Below, one piece after another: positions 26,075 through 63,984 of a stretch of 64,000 nt of DNA; position 1 is the first letter of the stretch, and each line of letters begins with the position of its first letter. The translations under genes and the position numbers were made by a program. This DNA comes from Gigantopelta aegis (Eukaryota > Mollusca > Gastropoda > Neomphalida > Peltospiridae): contig NC_054706.1 in the NCBI RefSeq assembly GCF_016097555.1, forward strand, positions 28,397,611-28,461,610, written 5' to 3'. Below the pieces are notes generated by a model. The model searched no databases and was not told where the DNA came from. It worked only from the letters and a program-made list of their open reading frames with translations.

Positions 26075-26336
26075 ATACACACATTTAAAAAAAACCACTT
26101 TATTAATTGATATATTAAAAAGTAATGGTTTTCAGATGAATGCAACTGAAATGTTTATATATCTGCACGTATTTGATGTAATACATATAAAAGTATAAAA
26201 AGACATGTCTTTCTATTATTATGTAAAATAAATGTGGATATTTTTTCCTTAAAGTGGCTAGAAATTTCTGAAATTGGCCATTTATTAAAACCAATGTGGC
26301 GACTTTTTTTCTCTTTTTTTTGAGCAAGGCCAACCA

Positions 26337-26407
<71 letters not shown>

Positions 26408-26805: not shown

Positions 26806-26839
26806 ATGTATACTGAACAAAGAATTTACCTTTCATCCA

Positions 26840-31195: not shown

Positions 31196-32159
31196 TCAGT
31201 ATTTGGTGTATCCACCATTGGCCCGTGAGCATGCGTGAAGACGACGGGGAAAGGATTGGCACAAACATCTCAAATAAGCCACAGTAATGTTCCTCCACTC
31301 CTCCTGCAACGCCTGTGCAAGCCCAGCGACGTTACGCGGTGGTGGCTGGCGGTGACGTACACGGCCTCCCAACTCATCCCACATGTGTTCAATTGGGTTC
31401 AAATCCGGTGAAACGGCGGGCCAGTTCATAACAGTGATACCGGGTTGTTGCAGGAATGCCAGGGTAATCCTTGCAGTATGTGGACGGGCACTGTCTTGTT
31501 GAAACAGAAGGGGACCTCCTGGTCTTTGGTGACGGCGCAAAAGTGGCTGGATAACTGGTCTTAGAATAACGTCCACTCCTGAAATCACAGTTGATTGCCC
31601 CCCATACCATCAGACAACCGCCGCCAAACGTTCCCTCACACATTCGTCAGCGTACCGTTCATGGAGTCTCCTGTACACACGTGCTCTTCCGTCGGCAAAG
31701 GAGACAGAGAAACGGGACTCATCTGAGAAAACAATGCTCCGGTAAAAGGCTGGTGGATGATTACCAAACTGTAGTCTCGCAGCACGATGTCGCGGTATCA
31801 TGATGTTACCGTTGTACGGGCGTCTGCATCTGAGTCCAGCCGTTCTGAGTCGACGGATGACTGTCATCGGATGGATATGCCTTCCATGACGCCCTATCGT
31901 GTTGCTTTGCTGTCATTGTCGCAGTTCTGAACCGGTCACGGAGGTGGTGTCGTCGAATCTGCCTATCTTGGCGTGGGGTCGTAACGGGACGTTGACCAGG
32001 TCGAGGTCGATCATGGACACTCCCGGTCTGTTGATGACGTTCAACAAGTCGTCCAATAGTCGATGAATGGACTCTGAAGGTCCTAGCAACTTGGCTTTGC
32101 GAAGTCCCCCCTTGAACCATGCCCAACGCTCGCTCCCTTTGTTCTTCTCCGAGTTTCAT
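31196..32159 (-). pseudogene. Tc1 transposase, broken by a few frameshifts
   Basis: N-terminal HTH (GTSQSQVARTFRVHSSTIGR), middle IVFSDESRFSVSFADGR, C-terminal FQQDSARPHTARIT. From this second catalytic Asp to the last Glu there are 34 residues between, as in Tc1. Confidence 0.88.
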
Positions 32160-32457
32160 TCTTAATGTGATGAGGAATATGACACCGTTACGTGACTTTT
32201 ATGTGTCCACATACTGGCATTTCACGTGCATTGCATGCAGCATGATTGAACATGTAGTGAACGCATTTCACACCATTTTGTGTGTTTCTGCTATTGTATG
32301 TGTAACGAGAACAAAACCAGGATTAAAACCCCGACAAAAGTACCAATCAATGGCTTCCTCTCATAAATTGTTATTTTAAGTCCAATAAATATATTTTTCA
32401 TTAATCACAACAAACTATTGAAAAATATCTGTTTTGCGTTTTCATTGTGTGTCAGTA

Positions 32458-36089: not shown

Positions 36090-36301
36090 TCATTTGTTTT
36101 TCATGAAATCATGTTTTTGTTTTTCCGCTCGCGATGCCATTAGCTTGAAAAATAGTCCAGGTAGAAGAGTCCTGATGAACACTGCAATTCGTGGAACGAA
36201 GGAGGCCAGAATTACATCTTTTCTTCCCATAATGACACTGTTCAAAACCTGCATGGCCACGTATTCGGGACTCATTCCAGCCGCGGTCGTCTTGTCTGTA
36301 A
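36090..36301 (-). CDS. DHRS7B: DHRS7B last coding exon and stop
   Basis: The acceptor ttaatgttacag precedes TTACAGAC, completing Val245 of the [17 protein letters not shown] run. The C-terminal part, [17 protein letters not shown] then [18 protein letters not shown], ends in TGA. The end matches the family's conserved C-terminal hydrophobic segment and basic tail. No peroxisomal SKL-type signal is present. Confidence 0.92.
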
Positions 36302-37138
36302 CTGTAACATTAAACCAATTATTACATTCATACAGTTCCGAACAGCAGGTACCATTATAATCATGTACATGCACAACAGGTTCATGCAAGACTAAAACAT
36401 TAATGGTGGCTTAATTAATTAAGATGCAGCTTCGTTATGCGGTTTTCATTTATTCAGGTTTGTTTTTTGTTGGGGGGTTTTTAAAATTAATTTTGTATTA
36501 TTATTATTTTTGTTTTATTATTGTTGTTTTTGTTTTATTATTGTTATTTTTCTTTTTCTATTTGTTTATTTTACTTCCGTCTATTATTTCTTCTCTTCTT
36601 TTGTGTGGTAACGTTTATTAATATCATAACATATTATTTGTATTATTATATAATGTGTATCCTATAACATTAATGTAAGGTAGTGATACCAGGGCCCCCA
36701 ACCCTGGCATTATCGTATTTCTTTTCTGGAACAATAAACTTTGAAAAAAAAGAAAAAAAGAAAAGAAAGAAAGGTGAGGCTTCGACACTGCATATCTATA
36801 AATTGTTTAAAAGATGAATATCCTCTTAATTATCCAGAAATGCTAGTATTTACAGTATTAGCCCCAAAAGATATATATATTACTGGTTTCTGTTCAGTGC
36901 GCACATTAATTTTGGCCTCACATGTCAACATTTTTTTTTTTTTTTTTTCAAATGTCTTGTAAGTAACAGCACCATCTATACCAGAAATAATGCTGTGCTG
37001 TCTCAAATATTGTGACACACCATGACATTAGCTGGCGGCAAAGTCAAAGTCAAAGAAAAAGTTCCTTTGGCTATGGAAAATAAGACGGAAAGTATTTAGG
37101 GTATAAAGCAAATGAGGAGGGATCCAAGGCAGATGACA

Positions 37139-37174
<36 letters not shown>

Positions 37175-37192
37175 TGTATTTATTTATATATT

Positions 37193-37226
<34 letters not shown>

Positions 37227-40200
37227 TATATACAGTCAAACTTGGATAACTTGATCTCGAAGGGGACGAGGAAATAGTTCGAGTTTCAGGGAGTTTGAGT
37301 TTTCGAAATTAATATATAACAGTTCAAATTTGAAAGAGGAAGTAAATGTTATAATGAACGTTGATGTATTTTACAGATGTCAAAGCATGGTGGAACATAA
37401 CTAATAAATAAAACACCGAATGCGAATAACACTCAGTACATTTATTTTTCACGAAATTATTTTAAATAAGAAAAATCATTAAAAAGCAGTAATGCAAGTC
37501 AGGTCATAACAATTATAAAAAAGAATCAGTGCTAACAATTATTACAAGTGCTCTTTGAGTTACCCACTGTGTCTGTAATTGTGTATTATGTAGCAATGCT
37601 CTCCGCCATGTACGAACACCAACACTCAAACACAGGATCAGTTCATTCCGCTTGGTTGGCGATCTATTATTCTGTAATTTTCACCTTAATCCTTGACAGC
37701 CAAGACCACCCGAGACAGGCACGCTTCAGATGATTGCCCGGATTGACAATTCATTTGTCTTTAAAATATTATTGGCAACGACTGTTTGATCAATCCACAC
37801 GCATCAAGTTTTAGAGGTGCATACTCTATTAAATCTTTATGGCGGGACCAAAGAATTAGATTGAGTTTATCGAGTGTTCGCAGTTTGAGTTTTCGAAGGC
37901 CGTTATTTCTAATTTGTATAGCAATTCGGCTGGGACTGTCGTTTCAGGTCAAGAGATCGAAATTTTCAAGAGATCGAAGGTGGAGTTTTCGAAGTTTGAC
38001 TGTACATGTATATGTATGTATGTATGTATGCATGTATGTATGTAAGTATGTATGTATTATTATTTATTTATTTATGTATTATAAATTATATATATATATC
38101 AGAGATGGGGTAATCGTAATCGTAATTGATTGTAATTGATTACATTTGTTTTCATGTAATTGCAATCGTAATCGATTACAATGTTTGAGAATGCCATGTA
38201 ATCGCAATTGTAATCAATTACATTGCTAATTACTTTCATGATTACTCATAATTATTTACTAAACTTAAATTTAGCATCAACTTCAGTAACAGTGCCTATA
38301 GTTAGAAGCAGTACTGGTCAATCAGTAGAAGTGATCTCCTATTGTCTACTACAGAAGAACTATCATTTGCAATGAGAAACTGGGAATCATAATGACTGGA
38401 TTATCAAATGAATGTAACCCAGGGAATGAAGACACACATTCACATAATGGCATCTATCTTGTTTATGTTTACTATAAAACCATTTGAATGAATACAGTGT
38501 TCTAGTTAGCAATATATAGAAATGGGCTGCACCCTACCCCAGTTTTGTGTCCTAATTCCTTGCCGTATAAATGCATATACAGCGTTATCACGGGTCTGAA
38601 TTCAACTAAGCAATGCTTGACAATATTTCGTTTTGTCACAGGTGTGAAAGTCCACCAACAGTACCTAGCCCAAGTACTCTGACTGTAGAGGGCTAGACGG
38701 ACATTTGGACAGATATTCAGCCCTTATAGTCAGAGACCAAGCTGTGTAATTTTCTGGCAATAGCTGCCCACCACATGGTAGTCAAAGATTCGCACTCAAA
38801 TACCACAACAATCCTATGTTTGACATCAAATACCTGTAGCGTTCCTGGTTTTCAGTCTGTCTATCTTTTCATATTTTCTTTGGTTATTATATTCAGTTAA
38901 GATTCTGATTATATCTCTTACTAATTACATTAACAGCATGATCTAACTCTACTCACTTATGAATATCAGAAATGTTATTTTCTCATTGCTACGAGGGATA
39001 ATACAATAAGTGTTGTGCAACCGTTTTAAATGTTGTCGGCAGAAGTCCGTGCAAGAGTGTGGCCTGACTGAATCAACCAATCAGGTTGGTCAGGTTAGAT
39101 CATTTTTCGACGCACGTTATTCATCCCCACTTGCGCTCGGGTTGTTTTTCTGTGAGGTTAGTTTTTGTGTGCTGTGTTGTTTTTCGTTTTATATATATAT
39201 AAACATGTTTGCTTCCATTCCTAGCTGTCTGCCCATTTAAACATACATTTAACCAATGTATATCTTATAAGTTTCGGTTATTAAAATTATAAATTAACTA
39301 CGTAAAGCGAGTCAGGCAATGACCCGTGTTACGTGTAAGGTGTAATCGTCCCATATATAATTCCGTGTTTTTACCGTGCACGAACTGTCCGCTTAATCGT
39401 TTTGGCTGAGTTAGAGAACGGACGACCCGTCTGAGTAAATTAAACCTGATTAAATTAGGATCTCGTTGATTTTAATAAGCGGTCTTCGTCATTGTCGATG
39501 GTTTGTAACCCCATTCCGAATAAGTGAGTCCTAATTATATGGATTAACGACTGCTTTAATAGGGTGTTTTGGTTAAAAATAGCTTTGAAAGGGGCTGTCC
39601 AATATATATGATTTAAACGGAGTTCGTGTACACCGGCATGGATGGGTAATCGTGTAAGGTGTAGAACCTAATTATTTGGTGTGTGCTGAATATTCTCTTC
39701 GTCGGGATTATCCACGACACATTCATACACGTCCCTAAATATAAATATTTATTTGTATGGATATGTGGGTGTAAATTTATTTATTTAGTGGTAGTCAATT
39801 CATATATGGATCTTGGAGGACTACCATACATATTTGTTATTTGTTTGTACTCCCTCGAATAAATGTATAATCTGTTTGTTTGTTAGTTTGGGTTTTCTGT
39901 GCTAGCCAAGTTGGTCTGGTTTATAGTAATTTCAGCCTTCTAGAGAATTATTAATAGACTCTTAGTACCAGCAAAAGTCTACAACCGAAAGGGGTAGCCG
40001 AACCCGTGGTCCCCAGATTGGGACCCGAAAAGTAAATTTCATTACATACCTTTACATCGATAATTTTCAAGCTACTTGATTTTTAAAAATCAACATATTA
40101 ATCACTAATACACACACTACAGAAAGAAATCTGACAGCACCCACATTCAGCTAAACTTTGTAACACTCCGTCGCAAGAATTACAAAGTTCGATTACCTAT

Positions 40201-43200
40201 ATCATGACGTAGGTCACGTGATCGCCCACTGGGTGATTCTGACTTACACAAAGTAACAGGGGCCTTCTCAACCTATGCAGAGCTTTAGATCTCACAAATG
40301 TGGGCACAACGTGGACTTTTATCTTTTCCAAATGTAAGATCATTTTAGTTCAGTACTGTCATTAACAGCTGCTGTAGAGTTGTCAATATTCAGAAATGCA
40401 TTTCAAGTTATTTTAACCTAATTAAATTTTAACCTAATTAAACTTAACATTTCAGTTGTTTGAGGTGAAATATTTTGAGGTCAGCATGTTTGTACTTAAT
40501 TTGGGTGTGATTATTTTGAACATAATATGTATGTTGCCTCGTCTTTGATGCAATCTAAAGCCCTGAAATGTTATGAATCTGGAAACTTGGCTGCACAAAG
40601 ATGCAGACCCGTCAACCCTCCCGGATTCCATGGGAGTCTCCCGGTATTTGATCAAATCTCCCACCCTCTGTGCAGGAGACAATTTCTCCTGTTAAATGAC
40701 ATTTTTGTAAGCATAAAAAAAATCCTGTTTTGCCAAAATAACATAAGGGAAGTAACTCAATCTCATTCGGAAAATGTCGACTACTTTCGGTTTCCGAGAA
40801 TGTAACAGGCCGAATTGTCCCGGCTGTTTAACCTTTGCCGAAGTAGGACTTGTGGGATATTTATATTGTTAAAAAAACACATGGAGTTTATAAAATGACG
40901 TGTTATTATAATGTTTGTTGTCATCGTAATGTCTACGAAGCGTGTTGCCGATAATTCAACAGGCTGTGTATTGCCATATATATAACTATCCAATTTAGTT
41001 CTAATAATGCCTCTGAATTGTAAAATATCTTCCCACTAGATTATAAGCACAAATAAAAGATCCCTTGCTGCTAATCGGAAAGAGTAGCCCATGTAGTGGC
41101 GACAGCAGGTTTCCTCTCAAAACTGTGTGGTCCTTAACCATATGTCTGACCCCATATAACCGTAAATAAAATGTGTTGAGTGTATCGTTAAATAAAACAT
41201 TTCTTTCTTTCCCACTAGATTACATAATGCAACTATGACGAATCTGAAGTGCCAGACTCTGGCCCAGACTTGACAGCGACGATACACATGATGCATGTTA
41301 AAATCACATGTCATAGCAAGACAACGAAAAGACCAATTAGCTATATACACATGTGTCAGTTAATTTTGTATGTTTGCGCAGTAAAATGTTGGTAACAAGG
41401 GTATATTCAAGAGATTATTTTTGTACAATTAATAAATGTTGTGTTTGACATAAAGTTACTCACGGAAATGGGTATAATTCTGGTAAATTTCACACGATGT
41501 CTGTAATGAGGTTTTACTTATGATTAATGGAAATACAATATTTATTGCATCATTATAATGATTTTAAATAAGTACCACGCCACTGTTCCTCATAATAGTA
41601 AAAACTGAATATTAATTTATAAGATTTATATAAATTTGTCTCAGGTACTTAGCTACACTAACCACAAATGATGATGTAACGTAACCTGTAAAGGCTGTAA
41701 GTATAATACCGTAAATGTACTAATTAATTTTTTAATTTCTTGTTCGTGTTCTTAACATTTTTGGATAAAAGAGTTATTTAAAAAAATATATATGTATTAA
41801 ATCATAATATTTAAACTTTAAAAAAAAAAAAAAATGATATATACTCAACCAAAAAAGTATTGCAGTTCCCACTAAATCGTCTTCAAACTTTATATTATTT
41901 GTCTAAAACCAGTCAAATTTAGTTAATTAAGTAAAATGGATTATTTGAAAAGCCTGGAAGTAAATTTATGTTTATGAACAGATGTTTATTGACGGATACT
42001 TCATTGTTAAACAGGAGGGTACAAAAATGTGATTTTGTCACAAATGTCAATATCTTGTATGCAGACCATTTTGGCGAAAATGGCTGTACAACGACATCTC
42101 ATGCTGGACGTAAGCCTACGAACTTCTACTGCAGCAATTTGGTTCCATTCTTGACGTAACGCCAGTTCAAGGTCACGAAGAGTGTTCAGTTGTGGGTGAT
42201 GTTCTCGTAATCGTCGACCCAAGATGTCCCACGTGTTCAATGGGGGAAAGGTTGGGGGATCTGGCTGGCCAGTCTAAGACTTGAATGTGATTTCTCTGCA
42301 AAAGTTCGTTAGTTATGCGGGCAGAATGAGGGCGGGCATTGTCTTGCTGAAATGTGAATGTAGGGTTGCGTTGCATAAATGGCAAGACAACAGGTGTAAT
42401 GATTTCGTCACAATATCGTTATGCAGTTAATGTTCCATTAACAGTAACCAGGTCAGTTTTGCCGTTGGAATGAATTCCCGCCCAGACCATGCTGCTGCCT
42501 CTGCCGTATCTGTCAAGCTCGATGATGTTTGCAGTGTCATAACGTTCGACTCGCCGACGCCATGTTCTTAGTCTACCATCCGCAAACTCTAGACAGAATC
42601 GGGATTCATCTGTGAACAAGACTTCATAACACTGTCTAAGACGCCACTGCTGATGAATTCTGGCCCACCTCAAGCATTCTGCGACATGACGTCATGTTAA
42701 TGGAACCCCTACACCAGGGCGACGAGCTCTTAAACCAGCATCATGGAGTCGATTACGAACGGTTTGAGGGTGAACCATTGTGCCAGTAGCCAGTCGTAAG
42801 TCGGCCGCCAACTTGGGAGCACCTTGGAATCTACGGCGGCGTGATGACGTCACTAAATACCGGTCCTCTCTTTGCGTTGTCGCACATGGCCGACCGGAGC
42901 GACGTCTGTCTTTTACTGCTCCAGTTTGTTGCAAACGATACCGTAGACGCAGTATTGTCATCGGGTGGACATTAAAGTGACGAGCAACGTTCCTAACACT
43001 TTCACCAGCAGCAAGTCTACCAATGGCCTCATGGCGTTGGTTTTCGGACATTGATGGACAGAGTCCCATGGCAATTTTCACACAATTTTCTTTCGTTTCA
43101 CATTAGATACAGGTCTGCCAGTTGAAAATCAAGGCTTATGCTTAATCATTGCACGTGATTTTCATGTTATGTGCGCACACGACATTTTCAGACTGTGTAC

Positions 43201-44215
43201 GAACAAAGACAGGAAGTGGAAAACTTTCCAGAAAAAACAGATTGACAATCAAACAGTATGCTGGATTAAACATGGTGATTACTTGCATTTCTTTCAAAAT
43301 TGCAAAATGTATACATTATGATCAAAAATGCAATACTGCAATACTTTTTTGGTTGAGTATATATTTTTTTTTTTTATTTTATTTTTTTTTTTTTTTAAAT
43401 GCCAAGATCTAAGGTTAACAAGTATATATGACATTATGTAGTGTTCATATAACTTATTGTAATATATATATTTTTTAAATCTTGCGATTTTGGGTTAAAT
43501 TGTGTTAATTTAAAAAATCTCCTGCTTTTTTTTACAAAATCTCCTGCTTTTTCAACACACACCTCCTGCTTTCTCTTGACTAAAGGTTGACAGGTCTGAA
43601 GATGCACCCTTTATTTTACTATAAGTGATACTGAAATATGAATTTTACATAACATTACAGGGCTTATAGAATTTTTATGAAATCCACTTGTCATGGGATC
43701 AGTGATTTAAAAAATGTACTAGCCATGATTAAAAATTCACAAGCTCTATTTTACTTTTAAGTTAATAAATTTACTAAATAATGTAATAATTGGATATGTC
43801 ACCTAAAGAGGGAGATAAAGCTTAACTTTGGGGGATGGGGGTGGGGGCAGGATATTCATATTTAGAAAATAGACTTTACTGCAACATCTGACCCAAAACA
43901 TTTTACTAGCCATCGGGCATGGCAAAAGTAGATATTTACTAGCCCAGCATCGAATATCACTAATCATGGGAGTGGAGCTACCATAATCTAGAAGCCATGC
44001 ATTACTTACCACCGTATTTCGACCCATCCTCACACACTGCATTCACAGAGAGATTGGTCTTTACATAACCAGGGCTAATCACAGTCACAGCAATATTCCT
44101 GTCAGCCACCTCTGCACGCAGACAGTCAAAAAATGCCTGGAAGGCATGCTTGGAAGCGGAGTCTGCAGAACATAAATAAAACACATTGTCATGTATTATT
44201 TGCTTCACCAATTAC

Positions 44216-44247
<32 letters not shown>

Positions 44248-44431
44248 GATAAAATCTTTATTTATAGAAGGTAGCTCAATTAGTTCTAGACTATTCTCCC
44301 CTGAGGCCTTCTTACTATTTATAATCATAATAATAATCATAATAATAATAATTGTTATTATTATTATATTATTATTATTATTAAAAAACTAAACTAACAA
44401 AACCATACTAATAATAATAATAATAATAATA

Positions 44432-44463
<32 letters not shown>

Positions 44464-47409
44464 AAAACTAAACTAACAAAACCATACATGTATGTACAAT
44501 GTAGAAGAGCAATCATGTTTCTAAGGAATGTTTTAAACATATTTTTCTTAAATATATTTAAACTAGTAAATTTTTTAACATCATTAGGTAAACATACAGG
44601 AACCTATACTTAATTATTTTATTACAAATCACAGTAAAACCCCACCTAATGACCACCCTGGTTCTAAGACCACCCCACTATAAAGACCAATATTTTAAAG
44701 ACCGGAACATTTCCTTATTATTTTGTAGTAAAAATACTTTGGTATTAAGACCACCCTGCTATTACGGATTATGACCAGTAAAGTCAGTGGTCGTTTTCAG
44801 TGTATTTGGACCCCACAAATGCGACCACAGCATTTACGTGTCAAGTCACATAAGCGACAAACAATACATAATGTATAAAAGCTTGCCTAGTTGTCAACGC
44901 TATGGTGTTAAAGTTAATTGCAGGTAAATCTGTTGCTCAAACTAGTAATTAAAAAACCCTATATTTATTTACTTGAAAAGACAAAGGTATTTGTTTTGAA
45001 CTAGAAAATCATAATTAATTTCTGGAAGGTACGGAGCACAAGCATTTTATTGTATAACTTGCACACAATAATGTTGAAAAGTAAGTTACAATACAGAGTA
45101 AAATGGTTTTTTTTTGTGAAAGCAAATGCCATACCATACTTTATTTTTCAACAATTAGCTGTGATCAGTCAAGTGAGACAGAAGTCACAAATTTGTATGA
45201 CCTTTGGGGCAGTGGACATATCCTAAAATGTTATTTGTCCAGACAGTAAGTGTTGTTAAACTCTATTGTGTAATAATTGAGAAAAAGACCGGGTCCAGGC
45301 ACACAAATAACTGAAGCAGGTTTGACACTTTGATTATTCTTGCTTTTCAATGTACACTGTAAACGTGAATACACTGTCATCACCTATTAATTTTATCAGT
45401 TTACACATTGCTGACGACAACCGGAAAGGAAGGTGGAATGTAAAACTCACAATCAATATTTACCAAACAATCATCCTTTTTTAAATGTTGGTAATTCAGT
45501 ATTAGGACCACTCCAATAAAAAGACAAAATTTATTAAGTGCTGCCGATGGTCGCAATAATGGAGTTTCACTGTAATTTTTAAACATAAAAAGACTTCCTT
45601 GTTTTAGTCAGTTGCCTGCAATTACTATGGGCTCTAATTAAGGGTGTCAATATACACCTACCTCATGATACGATATTTATCACGATACATAACCTGCAAT
45701 ACGATATGTATCATAATACCTGATTCACAGTGTTTTTCCAGTAAAACAAGAAATAGAATCTGTGGTGAAAATATAGATTTAAAATAAGAAACAAATATGA
45801 TGAAAGTGAAACACTGATTAAAACAGGAAACATCATACACATACTGACATAAGCAGGAGGCATTAATATAGGCCAATGGCCTGTTTGCCAATCCATTTCT
45901 TTTGTGAAATAAAAATAGTTTAAACTATAAGCAGGAAGATATTCCCTGTCTACTTCACTGTGTTTTCTTCAAGGAAATAGCCTGTATAAGCAAATCAAAT
46001 CAAAATGATATGGAAATAGGAATCGATAAATGGTCAAAATGTGAATTGATACAGTGTCACAAGCAAGGGTATCGTGTATCATCAATGCAGCAGTGTATCG
46101 AAAAAAAGAAGGAAATGTTTTATTTAACGACGCACTCAAGACATTTTATTTACGGTTATATGGCATCAGACATATGGTTAAGGACCACACAGATATTGAG
46201 AGACGAAGCCCGCTGTCGCCACTTCATGGACTACTCTTTTCGATTGGGAATTCAGAAATTGTTTACGTGCACATTCAGAGCAAGCTGTTGTAGTGCACGC
46301 CTGTCCTGGGCACAAGTACCGGCCTCAGTCGGTTCCTCCATCCAGGACAGGAAAGGGTTGGGGTGGGTGAAGGAGAGACCACCTGCACTGGCAGGTGCAA
46401 GGGAGCACCAGCAGTCCAACCGTAGTTGGTAACAGGCGGGAGATGATATGGTGCTATGTAATTTGGAATGTCCCGTAGGATTAAGCCAAAGGGAAATGAG
46501 TGCGCATTTTGATGAAGGAAGTTTGGCACAATTTTGATGGTCATTCTAAAAAATAAACATTAGAGAGCTACGTATAGGCTTGGATTTTAGTAGGCTGAGA
46601 GTAGCTCGTACAGTTTTGTAGTTAAGACCTGCAGATGATGAGGTGTCTCCCTAGGTTGCCCATAGGGCCCTTAGAAAGGGCTTGATCTCTTCTGATCGTG
46701 GCATGACAACCCAGGGGAGACTCGAAGCAATTGTATATATACACTGCAATTGTGTATATCTAGGAGGTAAGGTCAGCGAATCCTAGTGTTTTCCTGGGTT
46801 CCGTCTCTTGGCGCTATCTGATCCGTATGTTGTTCTTCTCTTCCATCTCTCCCATTCTTGTGCCCTTGGTGCCTCCACCAGCAGCAAGGAATTTTGGGGT
46901 TGGGTAGAGGGAGCCGGTATTCTTTTGTCCAGCTCCCTCAAGTTGCATTGCAATTGTGTACTAGGAGCCGGTTTTCTTTTGTCCAATTCCTTATTAAGTA
47001 CGTGCTGGGCCATTTTTGATTTTAGTTTGTGGGCGGGTGCATTGTTATGGACTTCTCTTTTCGATTAGCAGCAAGGGATCTTTTATATGCACCATCCCAC
47101 AGACAGGATAGTACATACCATGGCCTTTGTTACACCAGTTGTGGAGCACTGGCTGGAACGAAAATTAGCCTAATGGGTCCACCAACGGGGATCGATTCTA
47201 AATCGACCACGCATCAAGCAAGCGCTTTACCACTGGGCTACATCCCGCTCCGTAAAAATATCATTTCTTACTGCTAATCAAAAAGAATAATAGGCATCAG
47301 AAACTGGGAGGTCAGGGAATGGGGAGGACAATAGCTCCCCCCCCAACTCTGATGATTTACCACTGGGCCCTTCCAGATGAAACACAAACTAACATATTAT
47401 AGTTGACAA

Positions 47410-47440
<31 letters not shown>

Positions 47441-53400: not shown

Positions 53401-55827
53401 CCCACTACGCACACATGCGCAGTGGAATGTGAAAGAAGTCTATTCAGCTGTTGATTTCAATCGACAGTAAACAGGCATGCATTTATGATTTTTTTTACAT
53501 GATACACTGATGTAGTTTGGTTGATACAAAGGCAAGATTAAAATAAATACAAAAATGGGGGCCCCGCCTAAACCTGTGCCCGATGAAAACATCTGATCGC
53601 ATTAAAACTGTGTTTGTGTTTTGCAATCGTAATTAATGAGGGCTTCAGGGGCAGGACGTAGCCCAGTGGTAAAACGCTCGCTTGATGCGTGGTTGGTCTG
53701 GGATGGATCCCTGTCGGTGGGCCCATTGGGCTATTTCTCGTTACAGCCAGTGCACCACGACTGGTATATCAAAGGCCGTGGTATGTACTACCTTGTCTGA
53801 GGGATGGTGCATGTAAAAGATGCCGTGTTGGTAATTGAAAAGAGTAGCCCACGAAGTGGCGACAGTGGGTTTCCTCTCTCAATATCTGTGTGGTCCTTAA
53901 CCATATGTCTGAAGCTATATAACCGTAAACAAAATATGTTGAGTGCGTTGTTAAATAAAACATTTCTTTCTTTCAAGGCTTCAGTACATAAACAATAATT
54001 GTAACTGCAATTTAACATCATTGACAAACCACTGCATTCTCTTGTAAGGCAGTTCTCGTTTCTTCTAGCTTTGATGTGCTTCTTCCAGACAAAATTACAT
54101 GGCACCCTGCCTTATAAAACACCTCCGCACATGCTGAAAGAAAAAGAAAAAAACTTTTACTTTTTTTTTTAACACAGACACAAAGACAGTTTTTGGTTTT
54201 GGACATTACAAACATGGATGATGATGATGAGATGGATGATGAAGCTGCAGTATTTCCATTTCGACATGCTCTATCTACACTTGCTGTAAGTTAGAGTTAT
54301 CTCGGTATCACCCGAGCCCAGGGTACACAGAACCTGCAGTGCACATGTATATTTTATGATATATTATGATTTGTGATTAGAACATAATTTGATAACATCA
54401 ACATTGCAAAGAAGAAGTATCCTTTGTTTAACACCACCACTAGAGCACATTGATTTATGAATCATTGACTGTTCAATGTTATTGAGTTGCTTTAAAAAAA
54501 AAAAAAAAAATGTTTTATTTAACGATGCACTCAACACATTTTATTTATGGTTATATGGCGTCAGACATATGGTTACGGACCACACAGATTTTGAGAGGAA
54601 ACCCGCTGTCGCCACTACATGGGCTACTCTTTCCGATTAGCAGCAAGGGATCTTTTATTTGCACTTCCCACAGGGAGGATAGCACAAACCATGGCCTTTG
54701 TTGAACCAGTTATGGATCACTGGTCGGTGCAAGTGGTTTACATCTACCCATTGAGCCTTGCGGAACACTCACTCAGGGTTTGGAGTCGGTATCTGGATTA
54801 AAAATCCCATGCCTCGACTGGGATCCGAACCCAGTACCTACCAGCCTGTAGACCAATGGCCTAACCACGACGTCCCCGAGGCTGGTCTTAAAAAAACAAT
54901 AACAAGCAAAAGTGAGTTTGATACATATTTAACAATGAGCTGCATAATAAATGGTATTTAACACACAAATGTATTATTCTATTTCTTACATGCATGTATA
55001 TCCTTAAAAACCAGGTTTAAAATAAATTTAAACACATTTCCCATCTAAAACTTACTTACAGCACTCACATGACCTACAAAGGGTCATCTCTTAAGAAAAA
55101 TATATCTTTTCATATTTAACATTCTGGAAGGGACTGCCTCATTTAATAGTAATAGCCTTAAGGTTTGATAGAAAAATTCACGTCAGATAAAAAAACAAAG
55201 AAATACCAAAAAAAAGTAAACCTCAGAGATGAAAAGACAAATACATCAATAGAGATTATTACATGAGCTTGTCTGTCGTACTGATTTTACGAAATGAGTC
55301 AGGATTCTTCGAGAGGGAGGTAATATGTGAATTTTGACACAAGTTTTGTAAAATCAGTACGATTCACACACGAGTGTAGTGATTTCTTTATTATCCACAT
55401 TATGAATAACAAGGACAATGTCAAAATGTTTCAAATGTAACTAGAAGGAGATGGCGAAATGATATGATTTTAATAAGTGATTATACACAGAAGACTCGGG
55501 AAGCCGCATTAAGTCATGATGTCGCTTCCCAAAATTGGATCATTATTTGTGCACGTAAACAATCAATATGACACACTAGTATTATACTGGTTATATTTCC
55601 GTGTATATCATGAACTATGTGGATAATAATTAAATGGTAATATGATGATTTTGTACTCTCATACCTCTCCCAAGTCCTGATGTTGCACCTGTGATGAGGA
55701 CAATTTTATCTTTGATAGTCTTTCTCCTCCAGTGCTCCAGAAATAGAGACAGCATGTACACGAGACACAAAAAACACAAAGATATTCCGGCCACATAGGC
55801 AAGCAAAATCCATGATCCACCAACCAT
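36090..55827 (-). CDS. DHRS7B: DHRS7B/PexRAP-like short-chain dehydrogenase, complete, six coding exons
   Basis: Coding exons in order: 55827-55665, 54133-54030, 50508-50289, 48407-48315, 44162-44010, 36301-36090. All junctions are GT-AG and in phase, giving 945 coding bases and 314 residues (human DHRS7B about 325). Residues 6-30 form one membrane helix, followed by a basic stretch. The Rossmann glycine motif TGATSGLG is at 46-53, NNAG at 128-131, the catalytic Ser at 181, the YSASK tyrosine and lysine at 194 and 198, and a PG motif at 224-225. Segments such as [37 protein letters not shown] and [13 protein letters not shown] match my memory of human DHRS7B closely. The human enzyme is a peroxisome/ER-anchored NADPH-dependent reductase in ether-lipid synthesis (acyl/alkyl-DHAP reduction). 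All catalytic residues are present and no break is visible, so the gene looks functional. It is divergent from USP22. Introns hold many transposons. The exact end of exon 2 is uncertain by one codon. Confidence 0.93.
36420..36770 (+). mobile_element. probable LINE 3' tail in DHRS7B intron 5
   Basis: T-rich stretch, then GTAAGGTAGTGATACC, a CAGGGCCCCCAACCCTG hairpin and AACAATAAACTTTG before an A/G-rich tail. Similar in plan to 10.3-10.44 kb. Confidence 0.45.
37233..38002. mobile_element. pogo/Tigger-like non-autonomous element
   Basis: Ends CAGTCAAACTT and AAGTTTGACTG, with TA on each side, in flanking TATG repeats. Repeated 'gagttttcgaa' motifs inside both ends. No transposase frame. Confidence 0.7.
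38099..38260. repeat. TAATCGTAATCGATTACA-rich repeat
   Basis: Starts CAGAGATGGGGTAATCG, a hAT-like end I have seen in invertebrate repeats; no matching right end was found. Confidence 0.4.
38667..38834. repeat. interspersed repeat, other copy at 15975-16150
   Basis: Cut at its right side by the solo LTR. Sequence resumes after the LTR as tacctttacatcg, matching tacatttacatt in the intact copy. Confidence 0.75.
38835..40046. mobile_element. candidate solo LTR, about 1.2 kb
   Basis: Begins TGTAGCG and ends CATTACA, flanked by tacc (38831-38834, 40047-40050). The paralogous repeat at 16.14 kb shows the uninterrupted site. No internal region is present; family probably Ty3-like, unproven. A fossil. 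Confidence 0.6.
40278..40565. mobile_element. inverted-repeat element, copy of 49478-49749
   Basis: Ends CAGAGCTTTAGA and TCTAAAGCCCTG; the interior matches the other copy in reverse orientation over its whole length. Confidence 0.75.
41044..41208 (+). mobile_element. SINE, tail 1, 5'-truncated, 14-base target duplication
   Basis: Starts at CACAAATAAAAGATCCCTTG and ends (CTTT)n. ttcccactagatta flanks it at 41030-41043 and 41209-41222, so it was truncated at insertion. Confidence 0.92.
41840..43362 (-). mobile_element. Tc1-like transposon (element 3) in DHRS7B intron 5
   Basis: Ends CTCAACCAAAAAAGTATTGC in inverse orientation at both sides, next to TATA. The best preserved of the three: HTH, DDE motifs and full length are present, with about two frame changes. 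Confidence 0.92.
42010..43081 (-). pseudogene. Tc1 transposase, broken
   Basis: Start [43 protein letters not shown], then [33 protein letters not shown] and [14 protein letters not shown], with SPIEHV placed for DD34E. Two or so frameshifts separate the parts. Confidence 0.9.
44010..44162 (-). CDS. DHRS7B: DHRS7B coding exon 5 (catalytic Tyr/Lys)
   Basis: The acceptor atttatgttctgcag precedes ACTCCGCTTCC. The split codon T|AC gives catalytic Tyr194, followed by [17 protein letters not shown] and [14 protein letters not shown]. The donor is GGTG|gtaagt. Confidence 0.93.
44213..44465. repeat. (AAT)n clusters in DHRS7B intron 4
   Basis: Three AAT/ATT runs. A 27-base aaaaaactaaactaacaaaa block occurs twice (44384, 44462). 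Confidence 0.9.
44632..45572. mobile_element. pogo/Tigger-like non-autonomous element, 0.94 kb
   Basis: Ends CAGTAAAACCCCACCTAATG and CATTATTGCGACC... in the form TGGAGTTTCACTG. Repeated 'aagaccacc' blocks lie near the left end. Confidence 0.6.
45640..46100. repeat. GATACGATAT/ATCGTGTATC-rich sequence
   Basis: cacgatac, atacgatatgtatc, atcgataaatgg and gtatcgtgtatc blocks at both ends suggest an old inverted-repeat element; ends not defined. Confidence 0.35.
46112..47252 (-). mobile_element. SINE, head A, tail 1, split by an 801-base insertion
   Basis: Tail part at 46112-46245, head part at 47047-47252. The joining sequence atggactactcttttcgatt is present at both breaks. Confidence 0.88.
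46246..47046. mobile_element. 801-base insert with a 20-base target duplication
   Basis: Flanked by 46226-46245 and 47047-47066 (19 of 20 bases alike). Contains tttacgtgcacattcagagc..., also at 59185. No open frame of note. The long duplication suggests retroposition or a similar route. Confidence 0.65.
47520..47855. mobile_element. about 330-base repeat, copy at 50640-50975
   Basis: Shares ggtaactggaagtcagtt, actgattttcactttcatt and gtgaaatattgtgccct. Ends acattatttca / tgaaatattgt are weak inverse copies. Confidence 0.7.
47879..48216 (-). mobile_element. SINE, head A, tail 1
   Basis: Complete copy in DHRS7B intron 4; the 3' tail is GTTCGTTCTTTTGTTCC; gactgg may be the target duplication. 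It ends 99 bases from exon 4. Confidence 0.9.
48315..48407 (-). CDS. DHRS7B: DHRS7B coding exon 4 (catalytic serine), 93 bases
   Basis: Found by looking for the missing ALLP...RSAY segment of the family. The acceptor gtaattttcag precedes CAATCTTGCC, and the donor is GCAT|gtaagt. It encodes [18 protein letters not shown], then [12 protein letters not shown], and begins and ends in the phases its neighbours need. It carries catalytic Ser181. Confidence 0.92.
48410..49477. other. DHRS7B intron 3 part without recognised elements
   Basis: AT-rich, no terminal repeats or coding found. Confidence 0.5.
49478..49749. mobile_element. 272-base inverted-repeat element, 5-base duplication
   Basis: Ends CAGGGCTTTAGA and TCTAAAACCCTG; catag flanks it at 49473-49477 and 49750-49754. 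Interior repeats of tgcccaaaata near the left end. Confidence 0.82.
49957..50262 (+). mobile_element. SINE, head A, tail 2, next to a splice donor
   Basis: Full copy with AGTGGTGTCATTAAAC tail, flanked by cctttaata / cctttagta. Lies antisense in intron 3; about 25 bases separate it from the exon 3 donor. Confidence 0.92.
50289..50508 (-). CDS. DHRS7B: DHRS7B coding exon 3 (NNAG motif)
   Basis: The acceptor ttgttgtag precedes GGTGGTGGC; the exon ends ACTAAAG|gttggtac in phase 1. It encodes VTMDLEDL (adenine-pocket Asp), [13 protein letters not shown] and [11 protein letters not shown]. The donor lies only about 25 bases from the 3' end of a SINE inserted on the opposite strand (49957-50262). 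Confidence 0.92.
50640..50975. mobile_element. about 330-base repeat, copy of 47520-47855
   Basis: Same order of blocks as the first copy; its right end runs into a 101-base tandem pair. Confidence 0.7.
50941..51142. repeat. 101-base tandem duplication
   Basis: aacagttctcgtgaaatatt... repeats at 51042 with no visible difference, so very recent. It joins the end of the 330-base repeat to a SINE-like patch. Confidence 0.93.
51247..53444. mobile_element. candidate 2.2 kb DNA element with long imperfect inverted ends
   Basis: Left AATAGACCTCTTTACCATTC followed by TGCGCATGCGCGCGGAG; right end, reversed, AATAGACTTCTTTCACATTC followed by TGCGCATGTGTGCGTAG. Interior is non-coding, with CTTT repeats (51830-51900). 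Confidence 0.55.
53649..53976 (+). mobile_element. SINE, head A, tail 1
   Basis: Full copy with target duplication ggcttcag (53641-53648, 53977-53984), 54 bases downstream of DHRS7B exon 2, on the opposite strand. Confidence 0.94.
54030..54133 (-). CDS. DHRS7B: DHRS7B coding exon 2
   Basis: The acceptor ttctttcag precedes CATGTGCGGAGG. The split codon makes Ala55, then [20 protein letters not shown], the second strand of the NADP-binding fold with the GR pair typical of NADP(H) use. The donor is taken as GCAGTG|gtttgt to keep phase 0 with exon 3; GCA|gtggtt is an alternative one codon shorter. Confidence 0.88.
54424..54480 (-). mobile_element. SINE tail 2 fragment
   Basis: Holds tttaacaccaccactagagc and acattgatttatgaatcatt in minus sense; no head. 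Confidence 0.75.
54497..54887 (-). mobile_element. SINE, head B, tail 1
   Basis: Full copy between A-rich target copies; nearly identical to 28588-28980. Confidence 0.93.
54888..55664. other. DHRS7B intron 1, no recognised element
   Basis: AT-rich; two acgaaatgagtcagga / ttttgtaaaatcagtac blocks (55290-55365) are loosely inverse. Nothing else. Confidence 0.45.
55665..55827 (-). CDS. DHRS7B: DHRS7B coding exon 1 (anchor and glycine motif)
   Basis: The start is [12 protein letters not shown]; it reads through the membrane helix to TGATSGLGR and stops in phase 1 at AGAG|gtatgag. Eleven bases upstream of the ATG (55828-55838) follow an acceptor-like tttgctttttgcag ending at 55839, so a non-coding 5' exon probably lies further upstream. 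Confidence 0.92.
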
Positions 55828-55924
55828 CTTTCACAGGTCTGCAAAAAGCAAATATTTTGCATACATGTGCACGTGCATAAATAATAGATATAACTACAGG
55901 TATATTAAAAATTAAATGTCATAT

Positions 55925-56082
55925 ATAGTCAAACCTGCGTTAAAGAGCCACCTGTGTTAAAGCGGCCACACTTTTATTCTCCCAAATCATGTAATACAGT
56001 ACAAACTAAGCTGTATTAATTAGCATTTTAAAAGGCCACTTTTTATATTCTCTTTGATGGCTGCTTAAAACAGGTTTGTCTG
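55925..56082. mobile_element. pogo/Tigger-like short element near the DHRS7B start
   Basis: Left AGTCAAACCTGCGTTAAAG and right, reversed, CAGACAAACCTGTTTTAAG, in TA-rich flanks. About 100 bases upstream of the coding start. Confidence 0.7.
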
Positions 56083-56385
56083 TACATGTTTGTACATCTA
56101 AGATGTCTCAACCTATTTGGACCATATGGGCATACATTTTCATCTCTCTGTGTGAAAATCTTGTACATAATTTTTAGTGCCACTTTCTTTTGAAAAGGGG
56201 CCTATATGTTCGGATCGATAGAATACTTGAATAAATCTTTGAATATATACATGAGTATACATATATATAAACTATATACATAGATTTTAGAATTTTGAAG
56301 CCAAACATCGGCCTACAAATGGTGCACTAATATTGAAAATGCTACGGCAGGGAACATTTTGTTCAGTTTCACAATGCAATTACTG

Positions 56386-56436
56386 CGGGCGAGACATAGC
56401 CCAGTGGTAAAGCGCTCACTTGATGCACAGTCGGAT
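56386..56436 (+). mobile_element. SINE head A fragment
   Basis: Only the tRNA-like 5' half (TAGCCCAGTGGTAAAGCGC). Confidence 0.8.
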
Positions 56437-56719
56437 TTTAGAAAAAAAATGTATTTTAGACATAGTAACTTGCGACCCTTTGGTTGCTGACAATTGCTAA
56501 AGCATTACATGGTTTCCTCTAGCATTCCCCTACATATCACTATGGGGAGGGCTTGAGGTGACTTGAGCTAACAATGCACTTCTATGTAAAGAATGTGACA
56601 AGAAGAAACTCGACACCCCTACCTGAAACACAAATCACCAGATTTTAGAAACAGATGTCAGGTGTTTTGTTGAAACATTTGTAAAATGATCAAACAAAAG
56701 CATTAATTAAAGGTCTGAC

Positions 56720-57370
56720 ATTAGATTTATACTACGGTCACATATCCACCGGGCCCCGTACAAATTTCTAAGATTTCGGGAAATCGGGGGTATCGCAGGG
56801 GGCTGCGGCATCCATGTGCAGCAGTCACATATTCGGCGGGGCCCGCACTGTGCCCTTTGAAGTTTTCTCGACTCCAATCGCGAGACGCCGTATCTAAGCT
56901 GCAACAGTGCAAGCTAGGGTACCGCAATATAATCCTACGGATACTGTGTGGCAGTTGGAGGGGAGCCATGAGTAACCCGTACAATGTGTAATACGGGGCT
57001 CGTGAGGGACTTGCACAGACATCGTAAGATACTTGTACGATGATCTTGGAAATCGTACGGGTGCCATACGATTTGAGGGACCCGAATGTCCGTCCCAAAA
57101 TCGTACAGCATCCGTATAAATGTCATGGGGGCAATGCTGGGCCTGTGCGGTGCTCATGCGATGCTGTCTACGTGTGTACAGGCTTACAGCCATACAAATT
57201 TCTATGACATTGGGAACTTGCGCTAAAAGCTTCCGATTTGCACTACGGCGAAGAGGAAAAAATGCCAAGGCGCCCTCAGGATAGCTATGGCACCATTGCG
57301 GCCGCCGTGAGATTTTGCAAATTTTACCTAAAATTTGTGCCCGTACGTGCGCCTTATCCCGAATCGGAGG
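56720..57370. other. CpG- and CGTAC-rich block between the two gene starts
   Basis: Unlike the AT-rich surroundings, it has many CGTAC, GTACGAT and CCGTAC words, partly in inverse pairs. It may be a decayed repeat or part of the shared regulatory region. No open frame looks real. Confidence 0.45.
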
Positions 57371-57659
57371 ATAGGCTATGTGACTCCGTCATTACCATCA
57401 TTTACTGATTTAGGAAAAAATTTCAACAGTTTTGTCCTTCAAATTGAGTTTTCAACACTAAGTATTCTCTAGATCTATCTCTACATACAATCACGACATA
57501 GCCATAGGTCACTGAGTGAAGTGTTGAACATGTACCTTTAAATTAAAGATAAAATGACATTATTCATGACGTCATTTTGTTTACTTTTTCTAAAGTTTCA
57601 TACTCTAAGGAAAAATGTGTGCATTTCAGCAATGCACTAATGCATATTTTAGTTGTCAT

Positions 57660-57864
57660 TAGCATTCACATTTGCACGTGCAACACGATATTTGTGCTGT
57701 GAATTTAGGCGCACCTGAAAACTTTTACCACACCTTTCACGTGCCCCTTAAACGGAACCGGATATACCTGTCAATCTACCGCATGTGCGCAGACATTTGG
57801 CGTTTTTCTTGGTCACTGCGCATAAACCTTTGTTGAATATAACAAGAAATTCGACAGCAAAAAC
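57660..57864 (+). promoter_or_regulatory. candidate USP22 promoter, TATA-less
   Basis: Just upstream of USP22 there is no TATA box, but an E-box-like GCACGTGC, a second TCACGTGC, an ETS-like AACCGGATAT and an NRF1-like CGCATGTGCGCA lie within about 150 bases. This fits a housekeeping promoter. Assignment is from motif resemblance only. Confidence 0.35.
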
Positions 57865-57900
57865 ATGAAGTCTGAAAACATCAGGAGGGGTGAAAGATGA
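57865..57900 (+). promoter_or_regulatory. upstream open frame overlapping the USP22 start (ATGA)
   Basis: ATG at 57865 opens an 11-codon frame (MKSENIRRGER) whose TGA (57898-57900) shares ATGA with the USP22 ATG (57897-57899). Such an arrangement can allow or limit reinitiation. It matters only if transcription starts upstream of 57865, which the sequence cannot show. Confidence 0.5.
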
Positions 57901-58016
57901 GTGTCAATGGATGCCAGCATCTGAAAAGTTACAAAGCAACAAAAGGAACCGAATCTTTTAGAATCATCCATTCTTTTTTCATCGCCTGCTCATCAGCTGA
58001 TGCCAGGCGACGAAAG
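57897..58016 (+). CDS. USP22: USP22 coding exon 1
   Basis: Forty codons, from the ATG overlapping the stop of a short upstream frame to CGACGAAAG|gtgaga in phase 0. GCQHLKSYK...SFRIIHSFFIACSSADARRRK aligns with the CSHLGSFK...EARKRK start of human USP22 and the GCRHYQSY start of Nonstop (both from memory). The region is too short to stand out without the family alignment. Confidence 0.9.
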
Positions 58017-61000: not shown

Positions 61001-63984
61001 GGACTAAGTGGCAACCCTAGTTCTGTCTGACAGCTACTTTTGTGTACGAGTTCGAATTCCAGCCAAGGAGACACACATTTTACATGTGGTGGTGGAGGAA
61101 TAATGGAAGTCTTTCAAGAAGTTGTGCTTCATTTCTATGTGCACACACACACAAAATACCTTTATAATCTCTGGCGACGTCAGCAACAACACACTTAACG
61201 CGGTAAAGGGCTGACCCCAAAGTGGCTTATTACCATTAACAGGGCTGTCGGACCAGAACCAACTAAAATTTATTAGCCCACCATAATTTCTACTAGAACA
61301 ATATATTATTGTTTAACAATATTATAATACACTGTCTTCACTTGTAACGTTTGTTATATATATATTTATATAAGACGGACATTGGAAGTGCAAAAACATG
61401 TGGGGGCACACACACATGTATATATAAATACATGAATAAATATATAAAAACTATTGCTGCTTTCTACGCCAGTGTATAATAACAAACATTATTATGGCAA
61501 CTTGGTAAGTGATCAACATCACATGGCAAACGAAATCAATCCCAAACCTCAGTTGACGGATCAATAAATTTGGAAATATTTTGATAACATTTTTCACATT
61601 TACAAAATTCATGTGACATCCTGCAATTATTTAATAGAGCAATCTATTCAAACACACCTTCAACATAAACACGTAATTTCTAGAAAGTACTGACATTTGA
61701 CCGGCTCTGTTTTCAGAATTTGAAAATCTCTTGTCAATGCCGTACTTGTATTGTTGTGTATTTCATCATCATTCTGAACAGTTTGTTCGATTTTGAATGG
61801 TTTGGAATTCTGGCATAGCTGATGTAGAATGGATGCAAATGGGTGTTTTTTTAACTACTAGTCAGTCAGAAAAAGATAGCCCGTTTTTAACTTAAGATCT
61901 TATCCATCAGAATTTTTACTCTTATTTGGCTTACAGAGAACTTAAATAAATTTAGCAGTAATGTGTATGCTAACTAGCTATTGTTGTTTGATTTAACAAT
62001 TAATCAGTAGCATGTAACCAATGTGTGTTCAGTTAATAAATAAAAAAACAATTGCACAAAGGTTTTTCTGAACAGTCTGTTGTAAATCTTTTTAAATTTA
62101 GAGTGATGAAATATTAGTGTCTTGTGTAACCTCACTAAATTCGCTAAAAGTGTTATGCTGGCTAACATTTTCTGATTTACAAAATGAATAGTCATGTAAT
62201 TATTATCATATATATATATATATATATATATAGTTATTTTATATGTAAATATGCTTGTACAGTGAAACCTCTCAAAAGCAGAATTCCCCCAAAACCGGAC
62301 ATTTTTCACGGTTCTTTTTAAAAAATCATTACAGAACTTAACCTCACTTAAACAGGATACCTCTTAAAACTGGACTGAGGGTGTCCGGTGTAGAGGAGTT
62401 TCGCTGTTTATCAATTATTAAACTTTGATTTGTAGGCTTTTTCCTGTGTGTGTCACACGTGTCGCCAGAACAAGACAACACTTCACCAGAAACGACTTCA
62501 TGCCTGCCTCTACTGTGTCTACTTCGGATGTTACAATGCTCATCACATACAGGAGCATGCAAAAGCCAAGAAACACAATCTAGGTTGGTACTCCAAGCTG
62601 TTGTCACCAGAATGTGCCGTTTTAAAACATGTACATATATGTGGGTCCATAATTGTATTAACTTTTAAATGTTATGTTTTAGGTTCATCCACCCTACCAC
62701 TTCTACTATAAGATCAGTTGCCTTGTCTTCTGTCCTCCGGTGTTAAATTTTTGTTTTGTTTAACGACACCACTAGAGCACATTGATTTATTAATAATTAG
62801 CTATTGGATGTCAAATGCTTGGTAATTTTGACATATAATCTTAGTGGAAACCTGCTACATTTTCCCATTAGTAGCAAGGGATCTTTTATATGCACGATCC
62901 CACAGACAGGATAGCACATACCATGACCTTTGATATACCAGTCGTGATACACTGGTTGGAATGAGAAATAGCCCAATGGGCCCACTGTGAAATCGATCCC
63001 AAACACACACTGCATCAAGCGAGCGCTTTACCACTGGGCTATGTCCCACCCCTATCCTCCATTGTATACATGTATGTATGTATATATAATTACTAACTTT
63101 CCATTGTTATACAATCTATTCTGATGTCCATTATTGCTAAAACACTGGAGTTTATCCTTTGATAAACAATTTACTCTATTCTGATGTCTTGACTGGCCTC
63201 GGTGGCGTCGTGGCAGGCTGGTAGTTATTGGGTTCGGATGCCAGTCGAGGCATGGGATTTTGAATCCAGATACCGACTCCAAACCCTGAGTGAGTGCTCC
63301 GCAAGGCTCAATGGGTAGGTGTAAACCACTTGCACCGACCAGTGATCCATAACTGGTTCAACATAGGCCATGGTTTGTGCTATCCTGCCTGTGGGAAGTG
63401 CAAATAAAAGATCCCTTGCTGCCTGTCATAAAAAGAGTAGCCTATGTGGCGACAGCGGGTTTCCTCTAAAAACAGTGTCAGAATGACCATATGTTTGACG
63501 TCCAATAGCCGATGATAAGATAAAAAAATCAATGTGCTCTAGCGGTGTCGTTAAATAAAACAAAGTTTACTTTTACTTTTTTTACTATTCTGATGTCCAT
63601 TATTGCTAAAACACTGAAGTTTATCCTTCAATAAACCTCAGAAAATGTCATCATAATGTCAGGTGAGATATCATTAAATGTAAAACATGTCATGGAAAAC
63701 TTTGAAAAGTGATTTATATGTATTTTTAACTAAATAAGGTGTTTGTAATTACATGATTTTATACAATGTCTGTCTGTTATACATCAATAGTTTTACAAAA
63801 CAGGACAAACAATTCTTGTATAAATAACTTTTACTTGTATTGTAGTTTACCTACATGTTTCACCTTTCAGCTATTGACATGGTGTATGGCACAATCTACT
63901 GCTTTGGGTGTGCAGACTATGTCTACGACAGAGAGCTGGAAGATATGGCATCAAAACATATTAAGTCTTCAGCCATATCCCTGG
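57897..63984 (+). CDS. USP22: USP22/Nonstop-type ubiquitin hydrolase, N-terminal part (partial, runs off the window)
   Basis: Three exons (57897-58016, 62436-62583, 63871-63984) join in phase and give residues 1-127. The start is MSVNGCQHLKSYKATKG. The ZnF-UBP ligand pattern is complete: Cys6/His8, Cys46/Cys49, Cys64/Cys67, Cys72, His77, His81, His87 and Cys100/Cys103. The run RLHACLYCVYFGC and HAKAKKHNLAIDMVYGTIYC are close to human USP22 and fly Nonstop as I remember them. In those species the finger docks the enzyme in the SAGA DUB module (with ATXN7L3, ENY2, ATXN7), which removes ubiquitin from histone H2B. The USP catalytic Cys and His boxes lie beyond the right edge and cannot be judged. 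USP27X/USP51 are mammal-specific copies, so in an invertebrate USP22 is the fitting name. Confidence 0.92.
58017..58993. other. USP22 intron 1, left part
   Basis: An open frame (58039-58293) has no recognised homologue and directly follows the donor; probably not coding. A G tract lies at 58622-58634. Confidence 0.5.
59000..59358. mobile_element. 359-base inverted-repeat element with AGTTCGCCCCC repeats
   Basis: Ends GACGTTTCGCCCCCC and GGGGGGCGAAACGTC are exact inverse copies. Three or more cagttcgcc(c/t)c repeats lie inside the left end. The 59185 block is shared with the insert at 46.26 kb. Confidence 0.8.
59582..59712 (+). mobile_element. SINE, head A, deleted inside and truncated
   Basis: Core from CGATCCCCATCAGTGGGCCC; the segment between CCTGTCT and AATCGAAAAGAG is missing. 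Confidence 0.85.
59713..62259. other. USP22 intron 1, right part, no recognised element
   Basis: AT-rich, with (TA)n near 62213-62232 and AC repeats near 61141. No exon with family resemblance was found. Confidence 0.5.
62260..62406. mobile_element. pogo/Tigger-like short element beside a splice acceptor
   Basis: Ends CAGTGAAACCTCTC and, reversed, CAGCGAAACTCCTC; TA at the left. It leaves only 29 bases to USP22 exon 2. Confidence 0.75.
62436..62583 (+). CDS. USP22: USP22 coding exon 2 (zinc finger core)
   Basis: The acceptor actttgatttgtag precedes GCTTTTTCCTG (phase 0); the exon ends AATCTAG|gttggt (phase 1). It encodes SCVCHTCRQ, RLHACLYCVYFGCYNAHH and EHAKAKKHNL. Only 29 bases separate the acceptor from the right end of an inserted short element (62260-62406). 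Confidence 0.93.
62748..63052 (-). mobile_element. SINE, head A, tail 2
   Basis: Complete copy in USP22 intron 2; the B-box region is partly deleted (GGGATCGATTTCACAG). Confidence 0.92.
63189..63584 (+). mobile_element. SINE, head B, tail 2
   Basis: Head GCCTCGGTGGCGTCGTGG lacks about 17 bases near the anticodon position. The tail switches to GTCCAATAGCCGATGAT and GTGCTCTAGCGGTGTCG. Target duplication ctattctgatgtc (63176-63188, 63585-63597); the host site is itself a tandem pair. Confidence 0.93.
63871..63984 (+). CDS. USP22: USP22 coding exon 3 (end of zinc finger)
   Basis: The acceptor catgtttcacctttcag precedes CTATTGACATG; the donor is CCCTGG|gtaaat. It encodes IDMVYGTIYCFGCADYVYD, then a charged helix. 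Phase 2 in and phase 1 out, so a further exon is required outside the window. Confidence 0.93.

Follow-up and report, generated by a model that had tools for sequence, protein, structure and literature searches.

Linkage of USP22, DHRS7B and TMEM11 in the snail Gigantopelta aegis and a candidate bidirectional promoter between USP22 and DHRS7B

Conserved microsynteny pairs of metazoans were reportedly described by Irimia in 2012. For the bilaterian ancestor, 256 new microsyntenic blocks have been inferred in one account (PMC8851819). A study of amphioxus places 25% of neighbouring genes (3,950 of 15,884) in bidirectional promoters and reports that vertebrates lost most of 372 putatively ancestral bidirectional promoters, with 54.5% disappearing in stem vertebrates (PMC6292497). 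SERPINI1 and PDCD10, two unrelated genes lying head to head, are described as having a conserved bidirectional promoter (PMC1796892). Here we analyse a 64,000-nucleotide stretch of the snail Gigantopelta aegis (C8:28397611-28461610, where C8 is contig NC_054706.1; hereafter the window), in which USP22, encoding a chromatin deubiquitinase, and DHRS7B, encoding an ether-lipid reductase, lie head to head, with TMEM11 beyond DHRS7B. As in the microsyntenic blocks, unrelated neighbours retain their order across phyla. The head-to-head arrangement resembles that of SERPINI1–PDCD10 and of the ancestral amphioxus pairs, which are enriched in housekeeping genes and mostly separated in vertebrates. However, the amphioxus pairs were called by cap analysis of gene expression (CAGE) or by 5′-to-5′ microsynteny and the SERPINI1–PDCD10 promoter is a finding of that paper, whereas the promoter of the snail pair is proposed. 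The kind of arrangement is already known; the pair is extended here to a triplet.

Our preferred reading, to which we assign a probability of about 0.6, is that the three genes form an inherited triplet and that the head-to-head pair is still served in the snail by one ancestral bidirectional promoter. A presumed human adjacency is turned into a tested three-gene neighbourhood of mollusc and mammal, and a 0.5-kb segment is named in which a shared promoter would have to sit. The locus provides a simple case for setting retention of unrelated neighbours by a shared promoter against slow rearrangement.

A three-gene neighbourhood on one chromosome

The window contains the coding part of DHRS7B and the zinc-finger part of USP22:

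36090..55827, minus strand: coding part of DHRS7B, six exons with splice sites and an open 313-aa frame
55665-55827, 54033-54133, 50289-50508, 48315-48407, 44010-44162 and 36090-36301, minus strand: DHRS7B coding exons in 5′ to 3′ order, stop included
57897-58016, 62436-62583 and 63871-63984, plus strand: first three coding exons of USP22 (zf-UBP part); the gene continues past the window

The start codons, as distinct from the transcription starts, are 2,070 bp apart on opposite strands. The gene models thereby confirm two divergent genes with starts 2.07 kb apart, as proposed in the initial annotation, and the span given there, 36090..63984, runs exactly from the DHRS7B stop to the USP22 exon-3 donor. 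With random gene order within the chromosome, the chance of such a head-to-head neighbour is ~3e-4 by arithmetic, for a pair that was chosen because of its presumed adjacency in human.

If the pair was inherited, TMEM11 might be expected beyond DHRS7B on the plus strand. This prediction, taken from the pig gene order and set before the genome was searched (1.149 Gb, 5,216 contigs; published as a 1.15-Gb assembly with 15 pseudo-chromosomes and 21,438 genes (PMC7895826)), came true. The family search returned a single TMEM11 match genome-wide, at C8:28344407-28344877 on the plus strand (E 2.3e-69), within the interval 28344404-28344886 assigned to the TMEM11 orthologue. It is convergent with DHRS7B, lies 89 kb past the stop codon of that gene and is 53 kb to the left of the window. 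The order on C8 is TMEM11(+), DHRS7B(−), USP22(+). The chance that TMEM11 would lie no more than 89 kb away and in the expected orientation is ~5e-4, an arithmetic figure that tests a prior prediction; the joint chance of the triplet under random order within C8 is ~2e-7, assuming uniform gene density and uncorrected for the choice of a pair already presumed to be adjacent in human.

Linkage of other genes is looser. FLCN and ATPAF2, which we take to be human 17p11.2 genes, are on C8 at 37 and 4.1 Mb from the window; for each, a single weaker and partial match was also found on a small contig. These positions indicate that genes of the region were kept on one chromosome, that two of them moved apart and that three kept their order. 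The NATD1 family has one partial match genome-wide, on C13. With provisional query sequences, neither TMEM11 nor NATD1 was found within the window (best E 0.44), and NATD1, MAP2K3 and KCNJ12 gave no match at E 1e-3 in a 274-kb section of C8 that surrounds the pair. Between TMEM11 and DHRS7B, many of the longer open frames appear transposon-like by eye; seven short open frames from this interval, which holds at least 205 frames of at least 55 aa, matched no Pfam family, and a short-exon gene may lie there.

The closest counterpart is in pig, where USP22 is followed by the long non-coding RNA (lncRNA) ENSSSCG00000055301, DHRS7B, TMEM11, NATD1 and MAP2K3, with FLCN listed on the USP22 side (PMC11240794). 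Pig and snail thus keep the three protein-coding genes in identical order, and differ in the lncRNA that separates the pig pair. The same source, which places the lncRNA on chromosome 12, reports it as upregulated in males. In mouse, a figure legend that we take as map order gives Dhrs7b, Tmem11, Gtlf3b, Gtlf3a, Map2k3, Kcnj12, Tnfrsf13b and Usp22 (PMC2990707), which puts six loci between Dhrs7b and Usp22. Both genes are listed for human 17p11.2 together with TMEM11, MAP2K3 and KCNJ12, in alphabetical order (PMC3422354), and chimeric DHRS7B–TMEM11 RNAs are reported in leukaemia (PMC5861515). The pig passage gives no strands; the snail strands agree with those presumed for human. We take the human order to be USP22(−), DHRS7B(+), TMEM11(−), with presumably ~80 kb between USP22 and DHRS7B.

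Taken together, USP22–DHRS7B–TMEM11 is very probably an inherited neighbourhood that predates the split of molluscs and vertebrates. The ancient linkage suggested in the initial annotation is supported in that all three genes stand in the same order in pig and on C8. The linkage looks old but dispensable, given the loci that intervene in mouse and the placement of NATD1 on another chromosome in the snail. Among the literature passages found that name both USP22 and DHRS7B, none describes conservation of the pair or a bidirectional arrangement; literature searches for USP22 with microsynteny and for Drosophila CG7601 returned no paper, and DHRS7B is in none of the matches listed in the search that yielded SERPINI1–PDCD10.

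The gap between the start codons

The 2,069 bp between the two ATGs hold splice-site candidates, repeats and one unique segment:

55828..55838, minus strand: 11 nt of 5′ untranslated region (UTR) that complete the first DHRS7B exon identified, with an in-frame TGA between acceptor and ATG
56381..56468, no strand assigned: fragment resembling a short interspersed element (SINE), matched locally at 13 other places in the window
56732..57373, no strand assigned: dispersed GC-rich repeat of ~642 bp (GC 0.49-0.55), with genome matches
57380..57896, no strand assigned: genome-unique segment of 517 bp, the proposed bidirectional promoter; the genome search matches only the segment itself
57715 (CAG/GTGCGC), 57734 (AAG/GTGTGG) and 57768 (CAG/GTATAT), minus strand: candidate donors of a DHRS7B 5′ UTR exon, scores 9.42, 8.54 and 5.99
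57567 (TGACGTCA), 57675 and 57738 (CACGTG), 57758 (CCGGAT), 57786 and 57817 (TGCGCA): promoter-type motifs in 57380-57896

An acceptor, TTTGCTTTTTGCAG, with its last base at 55839, precedes the DHRS7B ATG by 11 nt. Its score of 5.36 exceeds that of six of the seven acceptors in the two gene models and is reached or surpassed at 40 sites in 128,000 strand-bases; within 40 nt before the USP22 ATG there is no comparable acceptor. The acceptor, together with the in-frame stop before the ATG, points to a non-coding first exon of DHRS7B farther towards USP22. Judged from these signals, DHRS7B most likely has an intron in its 5′ UTR and a transcription start nearer to USP22. The three candidate donors in the unique segment, which would set that exon next to the start of USP22, compete with three others in the gap, at 56623 (10.33, the best), 56420 (7.98) and 55952 (7.01); all are compared by score only, and donors in the gene models range from 0.43 to 10.49 (n = 8).

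The unique segment directly precedes the USP22 ATG. It contains 6 of the listed motifs against a mean of 0.35 in shuffled sequence, and 0 of 2000 shuffles reach 6; since the motifs were picked after the sequence had been read, the cluster is suggestive only. The CpG observed/expected ratio of this segment, taken in three bins of 200 bp (0.47, 0.95 and 0.64, compared with 0.72 for the whole window), indicates no clear CpG island.

Repeat and SINE fragment together make up about 35% of the gap. The genome-wide searches of the gap covered 56732-57373 and 57380-57896. They gave at least 45 further match rows for the 642-bp element, at 72-84% (40 of 155 candidates scored), several of the rows being second pieces of one copy, and the longest matches end at the same two ends. 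Terminal inverted repeats were considered for this element and rejected, as the best match was equalled in 380 of 1236 control stretches; its identification as a dispersed repeat comes from the genome search and not from inverted repeats. The SINE word of the window had no match in a collection of genome contigs, and Rfam at gathering scores returned nothing for the whole window. At 28904-28976 on the minus strand, ARAGORN called a tRNA without a clear anticodon (and without an Rfam call), perhaps a tRNA-derived SINE.

Shared promoter or undisturbed neighbours

In the reading we prefer, USP22 and DHRS7B would fire in opposite directions from 57380-57896 as one ancestral bidirectional promoter. 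USP22 would be transcribed directly from this segment, whereas the DHRS7B transcript would begin with a non-coding exon, and the intron after that exon would now hold both the 642-bp repeat and the SINE-like piece. In mammals, gene order would have been kept or loosened, and the close promoter would no longer be common to both genes. The gene models, the order and strands of the three genes, the lone TMEM11 match, the repeat and the uniqueness of the segment before USP22 are observed; an intron in the 5′ UTR, the place where DHRS7B transcription begins, and the existence and age of a common promoter are what we infer. For the snail locus considered by itself, we put the odds of a shared bidirectional promoter at about even. 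The initial annotation had suggested a possibly ancient pair and, were the linkage conserved, shared regulatory DNA in the gap. The linkage has gained from the pig order and TMEM11; shared regulatory DNA in the gap is plausible only. A third of the gap is repeat.

Several points weigh against this reading. Mouse lacks the adjacency, and the mammalian pair is loosely spaced, with six loci intervening in mouse and the lncRNA in pig. The axolotl passage links dhrs7b, tmem11, natd1, map2k3 and kcnj12 and does not mention usp22 (PMC6473073). Two phyla were compared. The presence of FLCN and ATPAF2 on C8 speaks for conservation at chromosome scale, which makes retention of unconstrained neighbours more probable. 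Within the gap, use of the donor at 56623 would leave the DHRS7B start up to ~1.27 kb (less the exon length) from the USP22 ATG, and the motif list is post hoc. One DHRS7B donor (GTGGTT after 54033) is weak, scoring 0.43, and for human both gene order and strands are presumed.

The main alternative is that a little-rearranged ancestral chromosome has simply kept the neighbours, with two separate promoters and no common control. We lean away from this but consider it a real possibility. The positions of FLCN and ATPAF2 (presumed human 17p11.2 genes) on the same chromosome, 37 and 4.1 Mb off, are in keeping with it, as are the conserved macro-synteny among molluscs reported in the G. aegis paper (PMC7895826), the existence of mouse without the adjacency, and the linkage of TMEM11 across 89 kb of DNA rich in transposon-like frames, over which a shared promoter is impossible. 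On the other hand, FLCN and ATPAF2 also reveal reordering within the chromosome, which makes an intact triplet unlikely by chance (the ~2e-7 given above), and the pair is close, with unique and motif-dense DNA on the USP22 side of the gap. Because retention of this kind fits and the adjacency is dispensable in mouse, the linkage justifies proposing shared regulatory DNA but falls short of establishing it.

An enhancer of one gene lying in or beyond a neighbour could hold all three together, as in genomic regulatory blocks. Such an arrangement would account for linkage that extends to TMEM11, past any shared promoter, and the lncRNA between USP22 and DHRS7B in pig would be compatible with it; we nevertheless consider it improbable, as none of the three genes is a developmental regulator of the type usually found in such blocks and the mouse order breaks the block. 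Independent joining of the genes in two lineages draws on the comparison of two phyla only and on the C13 match of NATD1, the next pig gene, but is very improbable given three genes in identical order on fitting strands and a TMEM11 position predicted ahead of the genome search.

The shared-promoter reading has a broader form, in which a triplet of bilaterian age was held by an ancestral bidirectional promoter. This promoter would have coupled the deubiquitinase gene with the reductase gene, and vertebrates would have uncoupled them. This form we hold to be doubtful. If the coupling was real, the pig lncRNA between the pair could be a remnant of old divergent transcription.

Gene identities and surrounding sequence

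The DHRS7B product belongs to adh_short (Pfam, E 8.5e-54), and its translation carries the classical short-chain dehydrogenase/reductase motifs TGxxxGxG, NNAG and YxxxK (the last as YSASK). Aligned over 296 aa with a provisional human DHRS7B sequence, it shows 54.7% identity, in a comparison confined to DHRS7B. Each of the five introns of the gene begins with GT and ends in AG. The 21 matches of the genome search comprise the gene's own six exons and 15 pieces at 25-53% identity, with no second copy found among them. Fragmented frames at 42419-43102, 31196-32198 and 29718-30035 of the window resemble Tc1/mariner-type transposases by eye.

For USP22, exon 1 was placed from splice sites and the joined protein; in tblastn with a provisional human USP22 sequence, exons 2 and 3 were matched and exon 1 was without a match. 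The N-terminal zf-UBP finger is present (Pfam, E 1.8e-12), and the start of the protein is 48% identical to this human sequence over 123 aa; it had no match in viral contigs. The catalytic domain follows on the same strand at C8:28466946-28476081, its UCH pieces lying 5.3-14.5 kb beyond the window end and each matching the provisional human USP22 at 52-88% identity, and carries the Cys box GLINLGNTCFMNC and the His box GSGHYTCYIR. The last C-terminal residues were not found past the window. Among solved structures, the catalytic part is nearest to 6tbm (1.5e-58), followed by five Ubp8 rows and then USP36, and the finger to 6tbm (1.2e-8), USP20 (4.2e-6) and Ubp8 (1.4e-5); no chain labelled USP22 is among the structure matches listed for either part. 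The 6tbm label reads ubiquitin hydrolase only, and we take the entry to be the yeast SAGA complex. By these matches, the snail USP22 is classed as SAGA type, nearer to Ubp8 than to other ubiquitin-specific proteases.

Farther out on C8, three similar frames to the right of USP22 (28507169-28516588) resemble alpha-L-fucosidase starts by eye, and to the left of TMEM11 a frame with an F-box and leucine-rich repeats (28274632-28275819) appears FBXL16-like by eye. Within the window, 6001-8000, 10001-12000 and 26001-28000 have GC skews of 0.67, -0.71 and -0.56 and are probably long simple-repeat-like arrays. A short frame at 4598-4909 on the minus strand, with a signal-peptide-like start and a Trp/Arg/His-rich stretch, could by eye encode a small secreted peptide.

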